This document shows, one piece after another, positions 2,226-17,178 of a stretch of DNA of 35,527 nucleotides. Position 1 is the first letter of the stretch. Each line of letters starts with the position of its first letter. This DNA is from Deltaproteobacteria bacterium (GTDB lineage: Bacteria; Desulfobacterota; Syntrophia; Syntrophales; UBA2210). Under the pieces are notes generated by a model. It saw nothing but the letters and a program-made list of their open reading frames with translations, was not told the DNA's origin and made no database searches. The translations under genes and the position numbers were made by a program. Location of the stretch: assembly GCA_016933215.1 (NCBI GenBank), contig JAFGBH010000045.1, positions 1 to 35,527 on the forward strand. Direction: 5' to 3'.

Positions 2226-3032
2226 CTACCGTCCCTTAAACTCCGGTTTCCGTTTTTCGAGAAAGGCCGTCACTGCCTCCAGCATATCCTCATTCGGCAC
2301 GACAGCGGCATTCCTCTGAGCCACATACTTGAGGCCCTGATAAATGCCATGATCGCGGCTGTAATTCGCCACCTCTTTTACCCCCTGCACGGCAAGAGGA
2401 GGCAGACCGGCGATTTCTTCCGCCAGTTTTGCCGCTTCCCTCACCAGTTCTTCCCGATCTTCACAGAGCCTCGTTATGTACCCCATTGCAAGGGCCTCCT
2501 CGGCCGTGAAATCCCTCCCTGTAAGCGCCAGTTCCCTGAACCAGCCCTGCCCGATGATGGAGGGAAGACGCTGGAGCGTGCCGATGTCGGCGATGATGCC
2601 GACTCTCGTTTCCCTGATGGAAAAAAGTGAATCTTTCGCTGCAATCCTGATATCACAGGCACTAGTCAGATCAATACCACCACCCACACAGTGTCCGTGT
2701 ATGGCGGCAATAACGGGTTTTCGGCATTTCTCAATGGCATTGATGCTTTCCTGAAACTCCTCTATCTTACGGCGAACCCACTCGCGATGAGCGGCCGAAC
2801 CGTCACCCAGAAATGCCTCGGCCGCTACCAGGTCAAGACCGGCGGTAAAACTCTTGCCCTCGGCCTTTATGACCACGACACGCACCTCCGGATCACGATC
2901 GAACTCACCAAAGAGTTTCGTCATCTCCTCAAAGAACTCAAAGGTCATGGTGTTCCGTTTTTCCGGTCTGTTCAGGATGAGCCACGTGACAAATCCCTCT
3001 TTCTCAACCTTGAATAAATCCTGGTCAGCCAT
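2226..3032 (-). CDS. Crotonase-fold protein, probable delta(3,5)-delta(2,4)-dienoyl-CoA isomerase
   Basis: Crotonase-superfamily protein of 268 residues. The N-terminal half carries the oxyanion-hole segment near SFTAGLDL (61-68) and the second near HCVGGGIDL (114-122). The active-site pattern fits mammalian peroxisomal/mitochondrial ECH1 (dienoyl-CoA isomerase) better than an ordinary hydratase: D121 in GGGID, E141 in SIRETRVG and D149 in IADIGTLQRLP. The spacings of 20 and 8 residues equal those of ECH1 Asp176, Glu196 and Asp204, and the adjoining GTLQRLP segment is shared. The family moves conjugated double bases of a 3,5-dienoyl-CoA to the 2,4 form, as required for odd-numbered double bonds. 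Start ATG 3032 follows GGGGAAATT. It sits 22 bases after the large acyl-CoA dehydrogenase gene. A hydratase role remains possible. Confidence 0.8.
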   Translation of the reverse strand: MADQDLFKVEKEGFVTWLILNRPEKRNTMTFEFFEEMTKLFGEFDRDPEVRVVVIKAEGKSFTAGLDLVAAEAFLGDGSAAHREWVRRKIEEFQESINAIEKCRKPVIAAIHGHCVGGGIDLTSACDIRIAAKDSLFSIRETRVGIIADIGTLQRLPSIIGQGWFRELALTGRDFTAEEALAMGYITRLCEDREELVREAAKLAEEIAGLPPLAVQGVKEVANYSRDHGIYQGLKYVAQRNAAVVPNEDMLEAVTAFLEKRKPEFKGR

Positions 3033-5004: not shown

Positions 5005-6675
5005 TTATGACATTACCGGGTCAAGTTTCTTTTTGATATCCTCCCGCAGTTCTTTCTTAAGCACTTTACCCACGGGGTTTCGCGGAATCGCATCGACAAT
5101 TTCCAACCGCTCCGGCAATTTGTACACGGCAACACCCTTCTCTTTCATGAAAGACGTTACGTCTTCCAGCGTCACCTTCTCACCTTCTCCGGGAACTACA
5201 TAGACACACACCTTTTCCCCCAGGTTCTCATCGGGCATTGAAATGGCAGCCACATCGGTTATTCCGGGATGTCCAAGGAGCATGTTCTCCACCTCCTGGG
5301 CACTGATATTGAAACCGCCCCTGATGATGATATCCTTCGTCCTGTCGAAGAATCCCACACAGTCCCCCTCCTTTATCTGAAAGAGGTCACCGGTATTGAA
5401 GTATCCCTCGCTGTCGAAGGCCTTTTCCGTAATGTCAGGACGTTTGAAATAGCAGGGAATGACGTTGGGTCCTCGATACCACAGCTCACCGACACTGCCG
5501 ATGTCAGTCAGTTCTTCCCCCGTGGCCGGGTCTATTATCTTGGATTGAACAAACTGTGAGGACAAGGCACTCCATTTTACACCCGGCTTCCCGTACTGGG
5601 GAAAATTATCCACCCGCCTTTCCATATCGGGAATATCAAAACGTCCCGAGACAAATCCGGTCCCCTCGTTCTGACCCCAGATGTTCCCGAACTCTATTCC
5701 CCAGCGTCGTTTCAGCTCCTGTACCGACCAGAGTGACGGAGGGGCCGATCCGAGGGTGATTGCCCGTATCTTGCTGAGATCAAATGCGTCGACCTTGGGA
5801 TGTTTCAGAAGGGCATTGATAACGGCTGGGACAAGGAGGGTATAATTTATCTCTTCCATGATAAGCTGCATCACAAAAGTGGCCCCGTCAAAGGGATGAT
5901 GCAGGACAAGTTTTCCGCCGACAATAAGCCATGGAAAGTATACCGTCCCGATCGATGCCATATTGACCAGCGGACCAGCAGTGATGAAATTGTCGTTCGG
6001 TTCTATGCCCGCTGTATCGATCTGGGCCAGTGACTGATTGTACCAGTTATTATGACTGAGGGGACAACCCTTGGGCTGGGCCTCCGTACCCGAGGACCAG
6101 CAGAGGGTCAGCACATCGTTGGCATCGATGACGATATCATCCAATTTCCCCGTAACCTCCCCTTTGCTCATATCTCTCAGCTCTTCCAGTGTAATGATAT
6201 GCTTTATGGAAGGATTTTTGGACTGGGCCTTCTCGAACATCTCTTTATGTTTGAAACCGTGAAATTCTTCCACGGTGATAACGGCCTTTGCCTCCGTCAT
6301 TTTCGCAATATACTCGATCTCCGACGAGCGCCACTGCATCGGCATGGGCGATATGAGCCCCCCTGCCCTGGTAATGGCAAGGTAGAGCATGGCAAGTTCC
6401 CAGCAGTTGGGAAGCTGAACCATAATGATGTCGTCTTTTTGAATACCTTTTTTGATGAGTGCTTCCGCGGTTGCATCCACCGCCCTGTCAAGCTGACTGT
6501 AGGTAAGTCTTTCAGGCTCCAGGCCCACCAGATCTTTTTTATTGAGAGGATCCACCAGACATTCTTTGTCGGGATCCTTTTTAACATTCTCCTTGAAATA
6601 GTCGATAAATGTTTCCTTTTTCCATGCCCCCTTTTCCGTCCATTCTTTGATCATCTCACGCGATGCTAAAATCAT
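5005..6675 (-). CDS. AMP-dependent acyl-CoA synthetase
   Basis: Adenylate-forming ligase of 556 residues. The P-loop SSGTEAQPKG (194-203) departs from the usual SSGTTGxPKG at two positions, E198 and A199, which marks a subgroup distinct from the synthetase at 433-2133. Other motifs are WGQNEGTGF in the A5 region, FNTGDLF, FDRTKDII and the C-terminal lysine K537 in NPVGKVLKK. It probably activates a carboxylic acid to its CoA thioester in the cytosol. The start ATG 6675 is preceded by a G-rich stretch (AAAAGGGGGGCTGT). It lies 57 bases downstream of the racemase-like gene in the same direction. Three synthetases in one cluster suggest several acid substrates or several entry points. Similar motifs occur in cyclohexanecarboxylate- and medium-chain-type ligases, so the substrate is left open. 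Confidence 0.87.
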   Translation of the reverse strand: MILASREMIKEWTEKGAWKKETFIDYFKENVKKDPDKECLVDPLNKKDLVGLEPERLTYSQLDRAVDATAEALIKKGIQKDDIIMVQLPNCWELAMLYLAITRAGGLISPMPMQWRSSEIEYIAKMTEAKAVITVEEFHGFKHKEMFEKAQSKNPSIKHIITLEELRDMSKGEVTGKLDDIVIDANDVLTLCWSSGTEAQPKGCPLSHNNWYNQSLAQIDTAGIEPNDNFITAGPLVNMASIGTVYFPWLIVGGKLVLHHPFDGATFVMQLIMEEINYTLLVPAVINALLKHPKVDAFDLSKIRAITLGSAPPSLWSVQELKRRWGIEFGNIWGQNEGTGFVSGRFDIPDMERRVDNFPQYGKPGVKWSALSSQFVQSKIIDPATGEELTDIGSVGELWYRGPNVIPCYFKRPDITEKAFDSEGYFNTGDLFQIKEGDCVGFFDRTKDIIIRGGFNISAQEVENMLLGHPGITDVAAISMPDENLGEKVCVYVVPGEGEKVTLEDVTSFMKEKGVAVYKLPERLEIVDAIPRNPVGKVLKKELREDIKKKLDPVMS

Positions 6676-6732: not shown

Positions 6733-7914
6733 CTAATTAAACAGCCCCTCCTTTTCGAACTCATCAGTTTCTGCGTCGGCATACCCCAGTTCATCCAGAA
6801 TCTCTCTCGTATGAGTTCCCGCCGGGACACCGGGCTTTTTATATTCCTGCGGTGTTCCGGAAAACTTGATAGGATTGGCAAGCTGTTTCATCTTCCCCCC
6901 CCAGGGAAGATCAATCTCCACTACCAGGTTACGTTTCTTTGTGTGAGGATCGTTCAGTGCCTCTGAAAGTGAGAGCACTGGCTCCACGCAGGCATCGTAA
7001 TTCTCGAATATCGAGAGCCATTCATCCATTGTCTTGGACCGCATAATATTTCTGACATCTTCCTTCACCTCATCGATATTCTGAGGCGCTACACCTCCTG
7101 CCATGAGGTCAGGCCGGCCGATCGCCTGGCAGAAAGCGGCAAAGAACTGGGGCTCGAGTCCGCCAAAGCTCAGATATTTCCCGTCGCCGGTCTCATAGAA
7201 ATCATAGAGGGAGCCGCCATTCAGGAAAAAGCCTTCACGTTCAGGCTCCAGATTATCAACAAGGTAGGCACCACCAACCATGGCATTGAAGGCGATGGCA
7301 CCGTCAGTCATGGAGATATCGATGTGCTGACCCTCTCCGGTCGCATCGCGGCTTACGACTGCAGCAAGAATACCGATGATCGCGTTGTACGATCCTGACG
7401 CAATATCGGCAATCTGCATCCCCATGAGCGATGGGCCCGATGCTTTCCTTCCCGAATAGGACATGATCCCCGAGCGCGCAAGATAATTAATATCATGACC
7501 TGCCTTCCCCTTCAGGGGACTGTCCTGCCCGTACCCCGTTATCGAACAGTAAATAATGGCGGGATTGAGGTCCTTAAGACTCTCATAATCGAGGCCGAAT
7601 TTTGCCATCACGCCGGGGCGGAACTGTTCAACCACGATATCGTAATCTGAGATAAGCTGATGGATGATACTGACAGCCCTGGATTCCTTGAGATTCAACG
7701 TCATGCTTCGTTTGCCGCGTTGCATGAAAGGTACGGTGAAGGAAATATCGGTATCATTAAGAAAGGGGGGTGCAAAGGATGCCATATCAGGCCGGGATCC
7801 TGAAATAACACGGAGCACATCTGCTCCCATATCAGCGAGATTCATTGTCGCAAAGGGTCCCGGAAGTAGTGTGGTAAAATCAAGAATTTTCAGCCCTGCA
7901 AGCGGTCCTGACAT
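6733..7914 (-). CDS. Alpha-methylacyl-CoA racemase-like protein (CaiB/BaiF family III)
   Basis: Family III CoA-transferase-fold protein, 393 residues from the chosen start. The frame can be extended to 7965, but ATG 7914 is preceded by AAGGAGGGACGTCATC and begins with the family N-terminus MSGPLAGLKILDF. The residues expected for racemase chemistry in M. tuberculosis MCR (His126, Asp156, Glu241) are matched by H140 in AGHDINY, D170 in QIADIASG and E254 in GLEPQFF, with almost identical spacing. This favours 2-methylacyl-CoA racemase/epimerase over a CoA-transferase, where only the aspartate is needed. Such enzymes convert the (2R) to the (2S) epimer so that acyl-CoA dehydrogenases can act on methyl-branched chains. 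It is directly downstream of the LCAD/IVD-like dehydrogenase gene (55 bases). Confidence 0.85.
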   Translation of the reverse strand: MSGPLAGLKILDFTTLLPGPFATMNLADMGADVLRVISGSRPDMASFAPPFLNDTDISFTVPFMQRGKRSMTLNLKESRAVSIIHQLISDYDIVVEQFRPGVMAKFGLDYESLKDLNPAIIYCSITGYGQDSPLKGKAGHDINYLARSGIMSYSGRKASGPSLMGMQIADIASGSYNAIIGILAAVVSRDATGEGQHIDISMTDGAIAFNAMVGGAYLVDNLEPEREGFFLNGGSLYDFYETGDGKYLSFGGLEPQFFAAFCQAIGRPDLMAGGVAPQNIDEVKEDVRNIMRSKTMDEWLSIFENYDACVEPVLSLSEALNDPHTKKRNLVVEIDLPWGGKMKQLANPIKFSGTPQEYKKPGVPAGTHTREILDELGYADAETDEFEKEGLFN

Positions 7915-7969
7915 GATGACGTCCCTCCTTTTATACATAGACGACCATTTCGGCCGTCTGAGCACCCCC

Positions 7970-9112
7970 CTATAAACCCATAAACCTGGCGGCGATCTGC
8001 TTCATGATTTCATTGGTCCCCGCAAAGATACGTGTAACCCTGATATCTCTCCAGGCTCGTGCTATCGGATATTCCTCACAATATCCATACCCCCCGTGAA
8101 GCTGAACGCACTCATCGGCAACACGGCACGCCATATCGGTGGTCCAGTATTTTGCCATGGAGACATCTATTACGACATTTTTACCCTCCATGTGCTCCAC
8201 GATCAGCTTGTCCATGAACGTTCTTCCCAGCTTGACATCCGTGGCCATCTCGACAATCTTGAACTGGCTGTTCTGGAATTTGGAAATGGGTTTTCCGAAG
8301 GCGGTTCGCTCTTTGCAGTAATCAATGGTAATCTCAAGCATATACTCTGCTGCGGCAACGGCGCCGATGGCACACATCAACCGTTCCTGCTGCAATTTCT
8401 CCATAAGGTGCAGAAATCCCGTACCTTTTGCACCGAGACGATTTTTCTTGGGAACGCGACAATCGGTGAAGTAGAGTTCGGCCGTATCCTGGCTGTGCCA
8501 GCCTATCTTTTTAATCTGCTTTCCCTTTTCAAAACCGGGGGTTCCATCCTCGACCACATAGAGATCCACGGCGGCATAGGGACTTTTCACTTCCGGATCT
8601 TTCGCAGCCACGACAACAACTCCGCAGTTTATCCCATTGCTGATGAATGTTTTCTGCCCGTTAATAATAACATCGTCTCCGTCCTCTACCGCCGTGGTCT
8701 TGATCGCAGCAAGGTCACTCCCCGTGTTCGGCTCGGTCATGGCTACGGCCGCAATGATATCGCCAGAAACGCAACCGGGGAGATACTTATGCTTTAACTC
8801 CTCGGAACCGAAGGCCGATATGTATGGTACGACAATATCACTATGCAGCGCCGTGCAGAGTCCCGAATGGTTCGTCCGCGTCATCTCTTCAGCCATGATG
8901 ACTGAATAGAGAAAATCCGCTCCCAAACCGCCGTATTCCTCGGGTATGTCCATACAAAGGAAACCCTGCTCTCCTAATTTCTTCCAGGCACTCTTTGGCG
9001 TAATACCTGCTTCTTCCCATTCTTCCACATATGGAATGACTTCTTTTTCAAGGTACTTTCTCAACGTATCCCTGAAAATTCTGTGTTCTTCCGTATAGTT
9101 TATAATTTCCAT
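7970..9112 (-). CDS. Acyl-CoA dehydrogenase, LCAD/IVD-like active site
   Basis: Standard-length (380 residues) FAD acyl-CoA dehydrogenase. MTEPNTGSDLAAI (125-137), NGQKTFISNG (151-160), ERTAFGKPISKFQ (268-280) and QLHGGYGYCEEYPI (337-350) are the family signatures. The position of the catalytic glutamate in MCAD/SCAD (YEGT) is alanine here, A364 in FAGTNEIMK. A glutamate is instead present in helix G, E243 in QQERL, as in long-chain acyl-CoA and isovaleryl-CoA dehydrogenases, where that glutamate is the base. The enzyme should therefore be active, in the subgroup that accepts long or branched acyl-CoAs. Start ATG 9112 follows AGGAGAAAAAAGG. It lies 66 bases downstream of the TetR gene and is probably cotranscribed with it. 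Confidence 0.92.
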   Translation of the reverse strand: MEIINYTEEHRIFRDTLRKYLEKEVIPYVEEWEEAGITPKSAWKKLGEQGFLCMDIPEEYGGLGADFLYSVIMAEEMTRTNHSGLCTALHSDIVVPYISAFGSEELKHKYLPGCVSGDIIAAVAMTEPNTGSDLAAIKTTAVEDGDDVIINGQKTFISNGINCGVVVVAAKDPEVKSPYAAVDLYVVEDGTPGFEKGKQIKKIGWHSQDTAELYFTDCRVPKKNRLGAKGTGFLHLMEKLQQERLMCAIGAVAAAEYMLEITIDYCKERTAFGKPISKFQNSQFKIVEMATDVKLGRTFMDKLIVEHMEGKNVVIDVSMAKYWTTDMACRVADECVQLHGGYGYCEEYPIARAWRDIRVTRIFAGTNEIMKQIAARFMGL

Positions 9113-9178: not shown

Positions 9179-9823
9179 TCAGTTACTCTCTTTTCCCGCT
9201 TCCTCATCCTGAGTGAAAGCGGCGGTGAATATATACATTACGGTTTTCTTCACCAGCTCCATATAATCCTTTTTTTTCAGCTTCAGCATAGGGCGAAAAG
9301 ACTCCTCTCCTGAAATAAAGCTGTGCATTGAATTCATTACCGTTAAAATGGAAGCCATTGAAAAGGGGCGGTTCTTCTTGTCCTCTTTCAGGCCCATGGA
9401 ACGGACGATTTCTATCGTAAACTCCGGAACCCTGAAATCCATAAGCACATCATGCCGCGTCTTCGCAAAATATCGGAACATGACCATATTGGATATTTCC
9501 GGATGCTCAAAGAGATAATCCATCATCATATCGATACCGATTGCGACACGGTCTTTGAGAGGACGCCCATGTATTATCTCTTCCACTTCCATCAACTTCT
9601 CGCGCAGGTCATTGTTGATATCGATAATGACCGCTTCGTAGAGATCTTTTTTCTCCCCCCAGTGATAATGAAGCGTCGAGATGTCGATTCCCACCTCTTT
9701 TGCGAGCATTCTCATCGTGGTACCGTGAAATCCATATTCACCAAATACTCTTCGTGCAACAGCCAGGATTTTCCCCTTCATTGATTCCGGGTCTTTCCGT
9801 GCCTTTTCTAACGTACTTTCCAT
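9179..9823 (-). CDS. TetR/AcrR family transcriptional regulator
   Basis: Regulator of 214 residues. Residues about 17-62 form the TetR helix-turn-helix: ILAVARRVFGEYGFHGTTM, then LAKEVGIDISTLHYHWGEK with the usual tyrosine-histidine-tryptophan after the recognition helix and KKDLYEAVI. The remaining 150 residues are the variable ligand-binding domain. It is encoded first in the unit that continues with the acyl-CoA dehydrogenase, racemase and synthetase genes. An inverted repeat TTCCATC-AATC-GATGGA sits 20-40 bases upstream of its start, and a matching one overlaps the promoter of the thiolase operon at 14997-15018. By analogy with FadR/PsrA-type TetR proteins, an acyl-CoA or related intermediate could be the inducer; this is inference. 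No alternative start is better supported than ATG 9823. Confidence 0.9.
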   Translation of the reverse strand: MESTLEKARKDPESMKGKILAVARRVFGEYGFHGTTMRMLAKEVGIDISTLHYHWGEKKDLYEAVIIDINNDLREKLMEVEEIIHGRPLKDRVAIGIDMMMDYLFEHPEISNMVMFRYFAKTRHDVLMDFRVPEFTIEIVRSMGLKEDKKNRPFSMASILTVMNSMHSFISGEESFRPMLKLKKKDYMELVKKTVMYIFTAAFTQDEEAGKESN

Positions 9824-9841: not shown

Positions 9842-9863
9842 GATTCCATCAATCGATGGATTT
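9842..9863 (-). promoter_or_regulatory. Putative TetR operator, copy 1
   Basis: Inverted repeat TTCCATC-AATC-GATGGA, with arms at 9844-9850 and 9855-9860, 19-40 bases upstream of the TetR start codon. The same half-sites with the same 4-base gap recur at 14999-15016. A TAATAATAAA stretch immediately upstream on the minus strand could be the -10 region. Autoregulation by the adjacent TetR gene is the simplest reading. Confidence 0.6.
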
Positions 9864-10125: not shown

Positions 10126-11034
10126 CTACTGGAGAACCGGTCCTAACACACCAAACATCTCAGGTAGCTGATTGAAATATTGAGGATTCTCAATACTTGT
10201 AATTTTTGCCCAGTTTTCCATTACCTCTTCCGGAGTCGGGATCTTTTTACCGTCCGAAAGTATCGCACCGGGACCCGTGACGATCGCCGAGCGGCTGAAG
10301 TATCCGAGCGCCGCATTAATGATCATGCCCGAATCCTCGCACTGCTCCGAACACATATAGAGCACGACGGGGGTTACGAAATCAGGTTTCATCTTCTCGA
10401 AGAATTCCGGCGGCAGCACGTCTTCCGTAAGACGAGAGGCTGCAACGGGTGCGAGAACATTCGTCTTGACGTTGTATTTTCCGCCTTCGAGTTTGAGCAC
10501 ATTGGTGAGACCGATAAGCCCCATCTTTGCCGCGGCATAGTTTGACTGCCCGAAGTTACCAAAGAGACCGGCTCCCGATGTGGTCATAACAATTCTTCCG
10601 TAACCGTTTTCCCTCATATTGGCAAAGGCAGGTCTTGTCACACAGTAGGCACCTCTCAAATGCACGGCCATAACCCCATCCCAGTTTTCCTCTTCCATCT
10701 TGGTAAAGGACTTATCCCTGAGAATGCCCGCGTTATTAATGAGTATGTCCACCTTGCCGAAGGCATCAATTGCCGTCTTTACGATGTTCTCGCCACCGGC
10801 AATTGTGGCCACATTATCATAGTTGGGAACGGCTTCGCCGCCTGCGGCCTTGATCTCCTCGACAACCTTATTTGCCGCGGAATCATCGGAACCTGTTCCA
10901 TCTCTCGTACCGCCCAGATCGTTCACAACAACCTTGGCACCACGTTTCGCCAGCTCGAGTGCATGACATCTTCCCAGACCGGCACCGGAACCAGTTACAA
11001 TTGCTACTCTTCCTGTAAAATCGATTGTTGACAT
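10126..11034 (-). CDS. MFE-2-like (3R)-hydroxyacyl-CoA dehydrogenase, SDR family
   Basis: NAD(P)-dependent short-chain dehydrogenase of 302 residues. Cofactor loop TGSGAGLG (14-21), NNAG (100-103) and the catalytic S153, Y166, K170 (SNYAAAK) are all present. The segment VVVNDLGGTRDGTG (36-49) and the long C-terminus after LPPEFFEKM match the dehydrogenase domain of peroxisomal multifunctional enzyme type 2 (HSD17B4/Fox2), which oxidises (3R)-hydroxyacyl-CoA to 3-ketoacyl-CoA. Upstream ATGs to 11058 exist, but ATG 11034 follows GGAGGGTAGATTT and gives the proper N-terminus. Two MaoC-type hydratase genes precede it, so the parts of MFE-2 appear as separate genes. A 132-base spacer with a long inverted repeat separates it from the MaoC gene. 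Confidence 0.88.
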   Translation of the reverse strand: MSTIDFTGRVAIVTGSGAGLGRCHALELAKRGAKVVVNDLGGTRDGTGSDDSAANKVVEEIKAAGGEAVPNYDNVATIAGGENIVKTAIDAFGKVDILINNAGILRDKSFTKMEEENWDGVMAVHLRGAYCVTRPAFANMRENGYGRIVMTTSGAGLFGNFGQSNYAAAKMGLIGLTNVLKLEGGKYNVKTNVLAPVAASRLTEDVLPPEFFEKMKPDFVTPVVLYMCSEQCEDSGMIINAALGYFSRSAIVTGPGAILSDGKKIPTPEEVMENWAKITSIENPQYFNQLPEMFGVLGPVLQ

Positions 11035-11060
11035 AAATCTACCCTCCATTCGTGTCATAA

Positions 11061-11166: not shown

Positions 11167-11601
11167 CTACGCCTTGCTCGGCAGAGCCGCTTCAAATTTA
11201 CCGGTGACCTTGACGTCCCCGTTTTCATCTTTTGCCGCAACTTCGCAGACAATGATGTTATTGCCGTCCTCAACACGTTTATCGGTCACCGAACCCGTTA
11301 CCGTAATCGTATTGCCCGGTTTTGTCATACCGGCAAACCGTACCCCAAACTTTTTCAGATCCTTCCGGGGAATCCATCCTGTAATGGCCTGTCCCACAAT
11401 ACCCATGATCAGCATGCCATGAGCGATGACACCATCCTTCATACCGACGGCCTTGGCAAAGTCATCATCGGTATGGAGAGGATTGAAATCACCTGACGCC
11501 CCGGCATACATCACATGCTGAAGTTTCTGAAGAGGCCCCTTTACCAGTTCGGGCATCGCATCGCCCACATTGACGTCTTCATAGTATATTTCTTGCGCCA
11601 T
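11167..11601 (-). CDS. MaoC-type (R)-specific enoyl-CoA hydratase subunit
   Basis: Hot-dog fold protein of 144 residues with the hydratase-2 motif: D38, N40 and H43 in SGDFNPLHTD, followed by GVIAHGM. The D-x4-H pair is the catalytic dyad of (R)-specific enoyl-CoA hydratases such as PhaJ and the hydratase-2 part of MFE-2. The predicted reaction is hydration of trans-2-enoyl-CoA to (3R)-hydroxyacyl-CoA, the substrate for the downstream SDR enzyme. The frame extends upstream to 11658, but ATG 11601 has AGGAGG seven bases before it and starts with MAQEIYY. The preceding gene encodes a hot-dog protein without this motif; the two probably form a heterodimer, as in mycobacterial HadAB-like and steroid-degradation ChsH-type enzymes. 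Confidence 0.87.
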   Translation of the reverse strand: MAQEIYYEDVNVGDAMPELVKGPLQKLQHVMYAGASGDFNPLHTDDDFAKAVGMKDGVIAHGMLIMGIVGQAITGWIPRKDLKKFGVRFAGMTKPGNTITVTGSVTDKRVEDGNNIIVCEVAAKDENGDVKVTGKFEAALPSKA

Positions 11602-11611
11602 AGTAATCCTC

Positions 11612-12061
11612 CTATTTCCTCTCAACGAGCAGTGAGCGGGCTTTTGCCACCTTTTCACCCCTCTGATTGGTGTACAACACCTCCATGGTAACCATGTCCA
11701 TCTTGGAGCCGGATTTGCTCGTCTTCTCCTCCATCTTGGTTACTTTTGGAGTGCCCGTGATAACATCTCCCGGATAGATCGACTGATAGTACTCATATTC
11801 CTCTTCTCCGTGGAGTACCATCATGAAGTTAATCTTGAGATCGTTGATCACGGCCGGCATTTTGTCGGCCCACATCATGGGCACGGTCAGAAATGTGAGG
11901 GAAGCAGGGGTATCCTTATAGCCCTCTGCAACAGCTGCATCCTTATCCAGATAAATAGGATTCGGATCTCCTATCGCCTTCGCGAGTTCCCTTATTTTCC
12001 CCCGTTCCACTTCCCAGGTAATCGGCGAATATTCCGTACCGACCTTTGATAAATCAGCCAT
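11612..12061 (-). CDS. MaoC dehydratase N-terminal-domain protein (hydratase partner subunit)
   Basis: Protein of 149 residues of the MaoC_dehydrat_N/FAS1-like hot-dog family. It starts MADLSKVGTEY and has AIGDPNPIYLD (30-40), PASLTFLTVP and a C-terminal TMEVLYTNQRGEKVAKA segment typical of the group. The catalytic D-x4-H of hydratase-2 is replaced by GDPNPIYLD, which lacks the histidine, so it is expected to be the structural, acyl-binding half of a heteromeric (R)-enoyl-CoA hydratase with the next gene, which starts 10 bases after its stop. Start ATG 12061 is preceded by AAGGAGGTGACGT. The thiolase gene ends 34 bases upstream. A stand-alone thioesterase role is less likely given the pairing. 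Confidence 0.83.
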   Translation of the reverse strand: MADLSKVGTEYSPITWEVERGKIRELAKAIGDPNPIYLDKDAAVAEGYKDTPASLTFLTVPMMWADKMPAVINDLKINFMMVLHGEEEYEYYQSIYPGDVITGTPKVTKMEEKTSKSGSKMDMVTMEVLYTNQRGEKVAKARSLLVERK

Positions 12062-12095: not shown

Positions 12096-13301
12096 CTATG
12101 CGTCATGTTTTCCGATAATGGCCACACTGCACACGTTCATGAAGGGAAATCCCCCCAGATTGTGTGTCAGACCAAACTTCGGATCCTTGAGCTGTCTGTC
12201 TCCTGCCCTGCCGTGCAGCTGAAGATACATCTCATAGAGCATGCGAAGTCCCGATGCACCGATCGGATGGCCGAAGCATTTCAGTCCTCCGTCCACCTGA
12301 CAGGGGACACCACCGTCAAGATCATAGAATCCGTCCATAATATCCTTGGGTGCCTGACCCCTCTCGGATATATGCAGGTCCTCCATCGTAACGAGTTCCG
12401 TAATGGAGAAACAGTCATGGACCTCCATCATGCTTATCTCTTCTCTCGGATTTGTTATCCCCGCTTCTTCGTATGCCGCAGTGCTCGCCTTTGATGTCGT
12501 CACGAAATGAGCGCCATCCCACTTATAGGCAAACTCCGTCCCGTTAGAGAGCGAAAGCTGCAGTGCCTTGACCGAAACGAGATCCTTCTTGCCGAGAGAC
12601 TTGGCAATTTCCGGCGTCGTCACTATGGCACAGGCAGAACCGTCACTCACTCCGCAGCAGTCAAATAATCCCAGCGGATAGGCAATCTGGGGAGCATTCA
12701 GGACCTGTTCCTCGGTCACGGCCCTTCTCAGATGCGCCTTCGGGTTCAGAACACCATTCGCGTGGCTCTTCATCGATACATGCGCCATTGCCCTCTTGAC
12801 GTCATTGATATCGAGGCCGTATTTTGCCGCATATCCGGTCGCCAGCATGGCAAATCCCCCCGGTGCCGTCATGTTAGCCATCCAGAGTTGATTCAGCATA
12901 CCCATGGCGGAGCTGAACTCAGGAAGACCTCCGTAACCGATGTCCTTCAATTTTTCCACACCGATTGCCAGCGCTATATCACAGGCACCGGAGGCTACCG
13001 CATACACCGCGCCTCTGAATGCTTCAGTACCGCTTGCACAGTAGTTCTCCACACGAGTCACCGATATGTTCGGAAGACGCAGTGCCATCGATGCCGGGAG
13101 TGCACTTTTCCCTATATTGACCTCATCGAAGCACGAACCGAGCCATGCGGCCTGTATTTCGTTTTTCTCAATTCCTGCATCGGCAAGACATTCCTGGAAT
13201 GCTTCAACCATCAGATCTTCCGCACCGTCATTCCATCTTTCGCCGAATCTGGTGCATCCCATTCCGATTATTGCGACTTTATCTCTTATTCCTGTTGCCA
13301 T
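12096..13301 (-). CDS. SCP2-type thiolase (lipid-transfer-protein-like acetyl-CoA acyltransferase)
   Basis: Thiolase-fold protein of 401 residues in the SCP-x/archaeal acetoacetyl-CoA thiolase group. The nucleophile is C88 in ENYCASGTEAF; H295 in EVHDCFSITE and H345 in KCFGHPIGASG are the conserved histidines. The CxG cysteine of classical degradative thiolases is not found in the C-terminal HNLGGF segment, as is usual for SCP2-type members. Expected role: thiolytic cleavage (or the reverse condensation) of a 3-ketoacyl-CoA, possibly bulky or 2-methyl branched. Its ATG shares one base with the TAA of the upstream HMGS-like/DUF35 gene (TAATG), so the two are translationally coupled and probably form a complex, as do archaeal thiolase-HMGS-DUF35 and BbsA-BbsB. 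Confidence 0.88.
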   Translation of the reverse strand: MATGIRDKVAIIGMGCTRFGERWNDGAEDLMVEAFQECLADAGIEKNEIQAAWLGSCFDEVNIGKSALPASMALRLPNISVTRVENYCASGTEAFRGAVYAVASGACDIALAIGVEKLKDIGYGGLPEFSSAMGMLNQLWMANMTAPGGFAMLATGYAAKYGLDINDVKRAMAHVSMKSHANGVLNPKAHLRRAVTEEQVLNAPQIAYPLGLFDCCGVSDGSACAIVTTPEIAKSLGKKDLVSVKALQLSLSNGTEFAYKWDGAHFVTTSKASTAAYEEAGITNPREEISMMEVHDCFSITELVTMEDLHISERGQAPKDIMDGFYDLDGGVPCQVDGGLKCFGHPIGASGLRMLYEMYLQLHGRAGDRQLKDPKFGLTHNLGGFPFMNVCSVAIIGKHDA

Positions 13302-14767
13302 TACGCATCACCTCCTTCTACCTGTGGTACGGCTTTCCAGAAATACCCCGTAAATCCGCGCATTTCATCGAAATACCTCTTTCTGAACGACATCTTCGTC
13401 TTCATACCCACTTTTACCTGATTCAGTTCGCAGTCGGTGAAATCGAGCATGGTTCTTCCGCCGCCGTCGTACCCTATCAAACCATACACCGCGGGCGGAT
13501 CAACAGACGCCGAAAGCATATCCCCCGTAAACATCAGGATGGTAGCCTCTTTGTCCGCAAACTCATATTCATCGAATTCATTGATGGCGCAACAATCCGG
13601 ATTGACACAGATCGGCATGGCCGGATACTGCGGGGTTCCGCACTTTTTGCACTTTACGCCTACCAAACTGAGCAGCATCTTTCTTTTTCTCCACAGAACA
13701 GTCAAGGAGGTGTTCGGATTCGCCTCACCCCTGATTCCGAGGTCAGCTGCGATGAGGTTTCTGAACTTGGAAAACTTCTGATAACTCGCCAGTTCCACTC
13801 TTTTTGCAAGAGATCCCTTTATTCCGATTGGACCATTGAAATCCTTAATCTTGTCGGTCACCTCAAAGGCCATGACATCACATCCCTGACCGAAGCTCGC
13901 CAGGAGAAGTTTATCGCCAGGTTTCGCCTCCTCCAGTGCCGCCACAAACATCACAAAGGGATGAGCGGTACCGGTATCGCCGCATACGGCATGCATATTG
14001 TTCTGCGCTTTTTCCTTATCGATACCGAGTTTCTTGGCAATGCCCTTATGGGTGCCGCCGAAATAACAGGGATATATTACTTTATCGAACTCCTCTATCT
14101 TCATCCCTGTCTTCGTCAGAAATCCTGCTATCGCCTCGGGTATTATCTTGCCGTAGCCGATATCCCGCTGCCATCTCTCTTCCCAGCCATAATCGAATTC
14201 CTTGCCGGAACCTTTGTAATGGTCGATAAAGTCACAGCTCACGGAATAACTGCCCTTGAATTCCGCTATGACATCATCTTTTCCAAACAACAAAGCCGCC
14301 GCCCCGTCACCGAAAAACATCTCAAACATGGTGGCCATCTTTGTTCTTCTCTGTTCGGATGCAACCACGAGGACACTGTCTTTCTTACCTGCTTCGATAG
14401 ACTCCAGTGCCGAGATTGCTGCTGTTGTACCGGCTTTCATGCACGCGCTAAAGTCCGCGTTTGAAACACCCGCTTCCTTCATATTAAGCGCTGTCGCAAC
14501 GATTCCTGCATTGAGCCTGTCGGCAAAGGGAAGCGTCGTGGAGGCAAGATAAAGACTGTCCAAAGCCTTTCTGTCTTTGCCGGTCATACAGTCATAGGCC
14601 GCAGCTACCGCCATACTGACGGCGTCTTCGTCCCAGTTGGCCACCGATTTTTCCCCGCCGGCAACTGCCATAATGACGGGAAAATACCAGGCCATGTTCT
14701 GGACAACGGTCATCCTGCTGAGCCTGTAGCGAGGGATATACCCCCCGTAGGATGTAATACCTACCAT
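13301..14767 (-). CDS. Archaeal HMG-CoA-synthase-like protein fused to DUF35 zinc-ribbon/OB domain
   Basis: Two-part protein of 488 residues. Residues 1 to about 340 follow archaeal HMG-CoA synthase (GITSYGGYIPRYR at the N-terminus, FSACMKAGT with nucleophile C109, FGDGAAALLFG, AKPGDKLLLASFGQG). Residues about 355-488 are DUF35: a rubredoxin-like zinc ribbon C373-x2-C376-x10-C387-x4-C392 and an OB fold. By comparison with archaeal HMGS, the active-site glutamate appears to be T77/T78 (LASTTLPFA) and the histidine P233 (IYPCYFGG), so normal HMG-CoA formation is doubtful. No mevalonate genes are nearby. First gene of its operon; its stop overlaps the thiolase start. Start ATG 14767 follows AAAGGAGGATTTAGT. 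It may shape or cap the thiolase active site, or catalyse a related acyl transfer. Confidence 0.8.
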   Translation of the reverse strand: MVGITSYGGYIPRYRLSRMTVVQNMAWYFPVIMAVAGGEKSVANWDEDAVSMAVAAAYDCMTGKDRKALDSLYLASTTLPFADRLNAGIVATALNMKEAGVSNADFSACMKAGTTAAISALESIEAGKKDSVLVVASEQRRTKMATMFEMFFGDGAAALLFGKDDVIAEFKGSYSVSCDFIDHYKGSGKEFDYGWEERWQRDIGYGKIIPEAIAGFLTKTGMKIEEFDKVIYPCYFGGTHKGIAKKLGIDKEKAQNNMHAVCGDTGTAHPFVMFVAALEEAKPGDKLLLASFGQGCDVMAFEVTDKIKDFNGPIGIKGSLAKRVELASYQKFSKFRNLIAADLGIRGEANPNTSLTVLWRKRKMLLSLVGVKCKKCGTPQYPAMPICVNPDCCAINEFDEYEFADKEATILMFTGDMLSASVDPPAVYGLIGYDGGGRTMLDFTDCELNQVKVGMKTKMSFRKRYFDEMRGFTGYFWKAVPQVEGGDA

Positions 14768-14996: not shown

Positions 14997-15018
14997 GATT
15001 CCATCAAACGATGGAAAC
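14997..15018 (-). promoter_or_regulatory. Putative TetR operator, copy 2
   Basis: Perfect inverted repeat TTCCATC (14999-15005), AAAC, GATGGAA (15010-15016). It shares half-sites and gap length with the repeat upstream of the TetR gene (9844-9860). It overlaps the last base of the predicted -10 box and the expected transcription start of the HMGS-like/thiolase operon, the classic position for repression. Confidence 0.68.
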
Positions 15019-16320: not shown

Positions 16321-17178
16321 TTACCCCCTATCCCCACGTATAAACTGCTCTATACGATTCGATGCATACCGGACATCTTCACCAAAGATCTCTTCCTTTT
16401 TATTGAGTTTGTTATTGACCCGATACTTCACCTTTTCTTCCGCAAAACCAAAGGGAACGGCATCAACTACCGTTGAAAATACATTGTTCAGGTGCCCGAT
16501 TGTTTCACTCTTTCTATCCTCCACCTTTTGAAGGGTTCCATAATTATCCTCCTCCTGCTCGTTGAACCCGAAATCATCGATAATTAATACACGGCGGAGT
16601 TTTCGCAGCTTCAGATCAGACTTGAGGGTTTTCCAGAATTGTATGTCAGACTTGTGGCATCCCAAATCAGCAGAATTTGCGACGACATACAAATTCTCCC
16701 CGACATCCGAAGGAATATTGTTAAGGGGCGATGCTTTTATTCCTAATCCATCACAATGCCTTATAATAGAGCCTGTGGCTTCGGCATAATGATCGGTAGC
16801 AATAACAGTCAATATTTCCCGGTGATTCTGTATTGTTTCGAGAATCCGCCCCCAGCGCGGATCAATACTGGAATGTTCCAGATAGCTGTCGACAAAAGAG
16901 GAGACGGCCTCTGCAAGCCGGGATTCCGAAATGTTACCCGATGTAAGTTCGCGAAGTCTCTCTTTCATTATTTCTTTATAGCCTGCATCGGTTGTACTCC
17001 CCTTCATCCAGGTGGGTATCACAATCGATTCCCAGAATACGTCCGGACCGCTTACTCCCATATCAGTCAGACCGCACTCCTGCAGCGCTTCCATTAAATT
17101 GTCGGAACGCCCGAACAGGACGGCGCCAAGGCTGAGAGTTCCCGAGTAATCAAAAATGATGAGTTTCTCGTACGGCAT
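16321..17178 (-). CDS. HAD-superfamily-like hydrolase, last gene of the thiamin operon
   Basis: Protein of 285 residues with the layout of a HAD phosphatase: motif I IIFDYSGTL (nucleophile D10), motif II VIATDHYAEA with threonine, motif III K in GCHKSDIQFW, and motif IV VLIIDDFGFNE. The second aspartate of the DxD motif, the usual acid/base, is S12 here, which is unusual for a phosphatase. A cap-like insertion lies between motifs I and II (residues about 25-115). It starts 17 bases after the stop of thiE in the same direction. From context it could dephosphorylate thiamin monophosphate to thiamin, feeding ThiN, since no thiL is present in the operon. That function is inference; it could also be an uncharacterised binding protein with the HAD fold. 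Confidence 0.72.
   Translation of the reverse strand: MPYEKLIIFDYSGTLSLGAVLFGRSDNLMEALQECGLTDMGVSGPDVFWESIVIPTWMKGSTTDAGYKEIMKERLRELTSGNISESRLAEAVSSFVDSYLEHSSIDPRWGRILETIQNHREILTVIATDHYAEATGSIIRHCDGLGIKASPLNNIPSDVGENLYVVANSADLGCHKSDIQFWKTLKSDLKLRKLRRVLIIDDFGFNEQEEDNYGTLQKVEDRKSETIGHLNNVFSTVVDAVPFGFAEEKVKYRVNNKLNKKEEIFGEDVRYASNRIEQFIRGDRG

Follow-up and report, generated by a model that had tools for sequence, protein, structure and literature searches.

We analysed a 35,527-nt stretch of DNA (hereafter the window) from a deltaproteobacterium of the order Syntrophales (lineage UBA2210; contig JAFGBH010000045.1 of assembly GCA_016933215.1), and found that the gene at 13301..14767 on its minus strand, whose product joins a domain resembling 3-hydroxy-3-methylglutaryl-CoA synthase (HMGS) to a DUF35 domain, probably specifies one of the two proteins of a thiolase complex, the non-catalytic one, with the chemistry left to the SCP2-type thiolase of the neighbouring gene (12096..13301). 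The first-pass annotation of this DNA had proposed a repurposed complex of the thiolase/HMGS/DUF35 type with the HMGS-like part as scaffold, and the family data agree with it: none of 104 fusion proteins retains the catalytic Cys or Glu of the synthase, the active site is intact in 90 partner thiolases (a set chosen by similarity to the window thiolase, and so not blind), and the two genes adjoin in 91 of 94 loci. As far as sequence can tell, what is new here is a thiolase/HMGS/DUF35 assembly in a catabolic and fused form. The family is common and was noted once before, in an estradiol degradation cluster, as an 'HMG-CoA synthase' that was left unexplained; we found no description of the DUF35 fusion or of the loss of all catalytic residues in the open literature, most subscription journals lying outside the search.

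The gene encodes 488 aa and has a strong ribosome-binding site, AGGAGG (14780-14775), directly ahead of its ATG, and it is coupled to the thiolase gene by a TAATG overlap, all in keeping with the reading frame first annotated. Orthologs with 70–91% identity were found on 26 contigs. The N-terminal domain matches PhlA (5m3k_A, E=4e-33) and the archaeal HMGS (6esq_I, E=9e-24), and a profile built from the 26 orthologs retrieves PhlA (2e-40), 6esq_I (2e-31), the DUF35 chain 6esq_E (5e-16) and also PhlB. The C-terminal domain matches 6esq_E with the single sequence as well (E=4e-11); with the Pfam models PF12172 and PF01796 (zf-ChsH2 and OB_ChsH2_C) it scores 20.1 and 23.1 bits, just under the cut-offs of 23.2 and 27.1, and of its four zinc ribbon cysteines C373 is present in all 104 fusion proteins and the other three in 103 each. 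The product thus appears to be an archaeal-type HMGS-like domain joined to a DUF35 zinc-ribbon/OB domain, as had been read from the window at the outset.

To place the catalytic residues, the 104 fusion proteins (30–91% identical in the main set, with plasmid members down to ~25%) were aligned with the HMGS of Methanothermococcus (Mt), two PhlA sequences and MucA. Because the alignment reproduces the published pairs, in which Glu82 and Cys114 of Mt HMGS correspond to Cys83 and Gly115 of PhlA (PMC6392133), its register is fixed. In this register no fusion protein has Glu at the general-base position, which is Thr77 in the window protein, and none has Cys at the nucleophile position, where Leu (41 members), Gln (14), Met (13) and Thr (12) occur instead and the window protein has Met110. 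The catalytic His is present in only two members, both haloarchaeal, and is Pro233 in the window protein, in which the catalytic Asn is Asp264. On this alignment, then, the window protein has another residue in place of each of the catalytic Cys, Glu, His and Asn. Thr77 and Pro233 had been assigned to the Glu and His positions before, which the alignment confirms. The earlier claim that the protein keeps its catalytic cysteine as C109 proved mistaken: C109 lies one residue before the nucleophile column, aligns with Mt Ala113 and falls in a column with Ser in 60 and Cys in 30 of the 104 proteins. With the nucleophile Cys lost as well, the case is therefore stronger than first stated, and an acyl-carrier role of the HMGS-like part through C109 was rejected, this residue being neither in the nucleophile column nor conserved.

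That the protein is nevertheless a genuine HMGS with shifted catalytic residues, feeding the two HMG-CoA reductases of the genome, could be argued from its 191-bit match to PRK04262 and from the reductase genes themselves. We regard this as scarcely credible and rejected it, since the anchored alignment contradicts it at all four positions, the scores with both HMGS models lie below their cut-offs (for TIGR00748, 132 bits against an equivalog cut-off of 353) and the operon is degradative. The reductase genes stand in tandem on another contig, C42 (5105-6694 and 8113-9651 of locus L144), with a PF09924 (LPG synthase C-terminal) gene ahead of each, and no HMGS above the family cut-off was found in this genome; the absence of mevalonate genes noted earlier thus holds for the operon, with these two reductase genes elsewhere.

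The window thiolase belongs to the PRK06157 family, keeps Cys88, H295-D-C297-F and H345-P, and has 6esq_A among its two closest matches (E=3e-55). HDCF and GHP motifs are present in all the partner thiolases; 89 of these sequences cover the Cys88 position, and every one has the cysteine there. A synthase-like subunit devoid of catalytic residues beside an intact thiolase subunit would accordingly seem to be the rule throughout the family. Of the 94 non-redundant loci, 91 have the thiolase gene next to the fusion gene and in the same orientation; among the three exceptions, one (L045) is cut by the end of the locus, and the other two are taken up below. The identities of fusion protein and thiolase correlate (r = 0.89, 79 pairs), as expected if the genes are inherited as a unit, a correlation that shared descent alone can also give. 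From their sequences we infer a complex between the two proteins.

The closest precedent is PhlABC, the monoacetylphloroglucinol acetyltransferase of Pseudomonas protegens (5m3k, 5mg5), which likewise comprises an HMGS-like subunit without Cys and Glu, a DUF35 subunit and an active thiolase-fold subunit, and whose PhlA is the nearest solved relative, by sequence, of the HMGS-like domain in the window. In PhlABC the residues of the thiolase PhlC alone catalyse, and PhlA, which lacks Cys and Glu, and PhlB are still required (PMC6392133). The window genes fit a make-up of this type (dead HMGS-like, thiolase and DUF35), the counterparts of PhlA and PhlB being joined in one protein. The two systems differ in that PhlABC consists of three separate proteins, serves antibiotic biosynthesis and is CoA-independent, whereas in the window the HMGS-like and DUF35 parts form one chain, the setting is a beta-oxidation operon and a putative CoA-contacting arginine, Arg198, is kept. 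Its Mt equivalent, Arg203, is presumably the CoA ligand shared with the thiolase that the HAMAP rule for archaeal HMGS describes; the window protein keeps the equivalents of Mt Arg203 and Tyr210, and Arg198 is found in 99 of 104 members; at this position PhlA has Ser and MucA has Tyr. The acetyltransferase, by comparison, lacks CoA-binding residues (PMC6392133). We take Arg198, a candidate shared CoA contact, as a lead. By analogy, the window complex would operate on the same principle as PhlABC with a different direction and setting; we do not count it as an HMG-CoA synthase, and we do not claim an acyltransferase role for it.

Such a role, as a C- or N-acyltransferase of the PhlABC/MucABC kind that builds bonds rather than cleaving them, might be drawn from the closest solved structures, which are PhlA (E about 1e-40) and 6esq with MucABC also close, and from Phl-like three-gene sets that adjoin nonribosomal peptide synthetase genes (L122). 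We consider it very improbable: beta-oxidation genes surround most fusion loci, the candidate CoA-contacting Arg, lost in PhlA and MucA, is kept, and in a tree the fusions form one clade apart from PhlA, MucA and Mt HMGS, the one active HMGS reference. Taken together, these relationships suggest that the thiolase/HMGS/DUF35 assembly has been redeployed at least twice, in antibiotic synthesis and in degradation, with synthase activity lost each time, although, since the tree holds a single active HMGS, the independence of the two redeployments is not proven. Among the matches listed in a search of plasmids for further archaeal HMGS, none was clearly an active enzyme of the archaeal type. Separately, we note that the set at L122, on a Priestia megaterium plasmid (5992-8770), comprises HMGS-like, thiolase and zinc ribbon genes, and that its HMGS-like subunit is also without Cys and Glu.

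Three other systems bear comparison. The archaeal thiolase/HMGS/DUF35 complex (6esq) has the same three folds as the window pair, and there, as in PhlABC, DUF35 forms a bridge between the two subunits of thiolase fold, but its HMGS keeps the catalytic residues, its DUF35 protein is a separate chain and it acts in the mevalonate pathway. The benzoylsuccinyl-CoA thiolase BbsAB (7pxp) also pairs an SCP2-type thiolase with a DUF35 subunit, and in anaerobic degradation, but has no HMGS-like domain; against the BbsB model NF053628 the window thiolase scores 158.7 bits, under the cut-off of 750. In Shy-Sal and ChsH1-ChsH2-Ltp2, of steroid side chain degradation, DUF35 likewise shares a chain with the enzyme of the step before and binds an enzyme of thiolase fold, yet the fused enzyme is a hydratase and the bound one a retro-aldolase, in which YDCY or a Tyr pair replaces HDCF (PMC12329534). 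YDCY or the Tyr pair occurs in none of the 90 partner thiolases, all of which have HDCF.

BbsAB and Ltp2-ChsH2 raise another possibility, namely that the dead domain is a passive relic and that DUF35 alone activates the thiolase, the DUF35 domains of BbsA and ChsH2/Shy being functional without an HMGS-like partner (PMC12329534). The domain, however, retains its full length in different phyla and even in haloarchaea, and D46-E47-D48, E149, G153, Arg198 and G263/G266/G295 are nearly invariant among the 104 members. Relative to the nearest relative (L002), dN/dS is ~0.06 for the HMGS-like domain, 0.08 for DUF35 and 0.04 for the thiolase, which points to purifying selection like that on its neighbours and not to a decaying relic, and makes the passive role quite improbable.

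Several observations weigh against a complex in which the fusion protein is the thiolase's non-catalytic partner. At L101 there is no recognised thiolase nearby, and at L109 the only one lies 5.9 kb away; in L110, on a Sphingomonas paeninsulae plasmid (10001-11446), three of the fusion protein's four zinc cysteines are gone, with the thiolase still adjoining. Two AlphaFold models of the fusion, from shallow alignments, are of low confidence (pLDDT 62 and 65). The structures closest to both are HMGS, PhlA and MucABC chains (Z 27–31 for the second model), and the HMGS-like domain, taken by way of a low-confidence model, gave Z 30.8 to 6et9_I/6esq_I (rmsd 3.2, 288 aligned) and 29 to PhlA; these fold matches are therefore quoted as support only. 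Finally, residues specific to the family, Thr77 (98/104), Asp/Glu83 (100/104) and Asp154 (99/104), differ from those of Mt and PhlA and could mean that the HMGS-like domain has a function of its own. The old site might have gained new catalysis through Thr77, Asp/Glu83, Arg/Lys111 and Asp154, such as the hydrolysis or tautomerisation of an oxoacyl-CoA; His240 and His269 are invariant among near relatives, and the authors of the estradiol study guessed at another activity. Nonetheless, positions 110, 233 and 264 of the old pocket vary across the family, Asp/Glu83 and Asp154 may be structural or interface residues, and the PhlA precedent is a dead partner, so that we hold new catalysis to be unlikely.

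Within the window's phylum, 88 of the 297 genomes sampled (30%) carry the family; beyond this phylum our sample consists of plasmids. Plasmids of Sphingomonadaceae, Variovorax, Azoarcus, Rhodococcus, Mycobacterium and Streptomyces also bear the fusion/thiolase pair, as do haloarchaeal plasmids with the gene order reversed. Many bacteria that degrade pollutants or steroids have this pair, without an explanation for it. Plasmid p3 of Novosphingobium sp. ES2-1, in a region matching the estradiol (edc) cluster, carries the same gene pair among genes of the estrogen degradation type; its protein is the same fusion, again without Cys and Glu, and is only 28.5% identical to that of the window. In the edc cluster of Novosphingobium tardaugens itself, the 'HMG-CoA synthase' EGO55_13555 also stands beside a thiolase; it was published as unexplained, its residues and DUF35 fusion not being mentioned in the accessible part of that report.

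In at least ten loci from other families of the phylum (L050, L052, L054, L056, L057, L058, L059, L063, L064 and L045) the HMGS-like/DUF35 frame runs on into a short-chain dehydrogenase/reductase (SDR), giving open frames of 811–939 aa. The fused SDR is 58–67% identical to the window's own SDR, and several of these fusions end in an SCP2-like segment, confirmed as SCP2 by Pfam in L054. Since dehydrogenase and thiolase catalyse consecutive steps, the fusion protein most likely keeps steps three and four of beta-oxidation together. No thiolase fused to the HMGS-like protein was found among the loci examined; a long N-terminal extension at L109 was rejected as a fusion, being a chance open frame without domain sense. 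More tentatively, and with the balance somewhat against it, the HMGS fold could be a CoA-holding channel module, with the dead domain providing one half of a CoA site, DUF35 clamping the thiolase and the dehydrogenase handing over the 3-oxoacyl-CoA without release. If so, it would belong to a general, so far unrecognised type of beta-oxidation metabolon that handles awkward acyl chains in bacteria and haloarchaea.

Returning to the thiolase complex favoured here, its pathway may be pictured as follows. The CoA ligase or the CoA transferase would activate a carboxylic acid, acyl-CoA dehydrogenases would oxidise it, and the operon's own MaoC hydratase and SDR would then yield the 3-oxoacyl-CoA. 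Thiolase Cys88 would then take the acyl group in a CoA-dependent (retro-Claisen) cleavage, with DUF35 clamping the thiolase as in 6esq, 5m3k and 7pxp, and with the pseudo-synthase closing the cavity and perhaps holding CoA through Arg198. The dead domain would in this way serve both as a scaffold and as half of a shared cavity for CoA and substrate, and the reaction would run in the degradative direction. Peroxisomes use the combination of MaoC hydratase, SDR and SCP2-thiolase to oxidise branched chains. The substrate could plausibly have a branched or bulky chain, as hinted at by this enzyme set, by the ortholog in the estradiol cluster and by the SCP2 domain in relatives.

These assignments matter for annotation, as members on catabolic plasmids of several phyla are labelled HMG-CoA synthase, OB-fold protein or 3-oxoacyl-ACP synthase. 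Such names mislead pathway reconstruction, and the edc study was unable to assign its own member a place; the residue map given here marks the family as a pseudoenzyme subunit and names its partner.

The genes downstream of the pair complete a full set to activate and beta-oxidise some carboxylic acid (Table 1), and the operon order is kept among relatives. A palindrome, TCCATC-N4-GATGGA, occurs twice. None is expected from shuffles of the window, these two are the only near-matches in the 2.69-Mb genome, and a reversed control gave 0. In ten relatives the motif again precedes the orthologous operon, and in three of the SDR-fusion loci it lies near the start of a TetR open frame; it is likely to be a TetR operator that joins the cluster into one regulon. 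A hairpin sits between the SDR and TetR genes; generic promoter and terminator scans stayed at chance level.

Table 1. Genes, domains, residues and sequence motifs of the cluster, in window coordinates.
Feature	Position	Strand	Basis or remark
HMGS-like/DUF35 fusion gene	13301..14767	-	ORF, 488 aa; first gene of operon
HMGS-like (thiolase/KAS III fold) domain, residues 1-340	13748..14767	-	PRK04262, TIGR00748, PDB 5m3k/6esq matches
Thr77, general-base Glu position (Mt Glu82, PhlA Cys83)	14537..14539	-	Glu 0/104, Thr 98/104
Met110, nucleophile Cys position (Mt Cys114, PhlA Gly115)	14438..14440	-	Cys 0/104
Arg198 (Mt Arg203), candidate shared CoA contact	14174..14176	-	kept 99/104; Ser in PhlA, Tyr in MucA
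Pro233, catalytic His position (Mt His238, PhlA Gln242)	14069..14071	-	His 2/104
Asp264, catalytic Asn position (Mt Asn270, PhlA Asp274)	13976..13978	-	alignment
DUF35 domain (zinc ribbon + OB fold), residues 358-483	13319..13696	-	6esq_E E=4e-11 (sequence), 5e-16 (profile)
Zinc ribbon cysteines C373, C376, C387, C392	13592..13651	-	C373 104/104; other three 103/104 each
SCP2-type thiolase, PRK06157 family	12096..13301	-	PRK06157 688 bits, cut-off 403
MaoC-type (FAS1_DH region) hydratase subunit	11612..12061	-	Pfam PF13452
MaoC-type hydratase subunit	11167..11658	-	Pfam PF01575
SDR 3-hydroxyacyl-CoA dehydrogenase	10126..11058	-	Pfam PF00106
TetR-family regulator	9179..9823	-	Pfam PF00440; same gene order in L007, L008, L010, L027
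Acyl-CoA dehydrogenase	7970..9112	-	domain search
CoA-transferase family III	6733..7965	-	domain search
AMP-forming acyl-CoA ligase	5005..6675	-	domain search
Second, long acyl-CoA dehydrogenase, 621 aa	3055..4920	-	domain search
Crotonase-type enoyl-CoA hydratase/isomerase	2226..3032	-	domain search
Palindrome, candidate TetR operator	15000..15015	.	TCCATC-N4-GATGGA; upstream of operon
Second palindrome copy	9845..9860	.	same motif; before tetR gene

Elsewhere in the window, a 285-aa open reading frame (16321-17178, minus strand) has no Pfam or NCBIfam match. Two further contigs of the same genome (C40 and C81; loci L145 and L146) carry more SCP2-type thiolases with separate DUF35 genes nearby and no HMGS-like match there. 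Five genes for glycyl-radical (PFL-like) enzymes, one with an internal stop, are found on contigs C44, C54, C70, C95 and C38, and could include hydrocarbon-activating enzymes.

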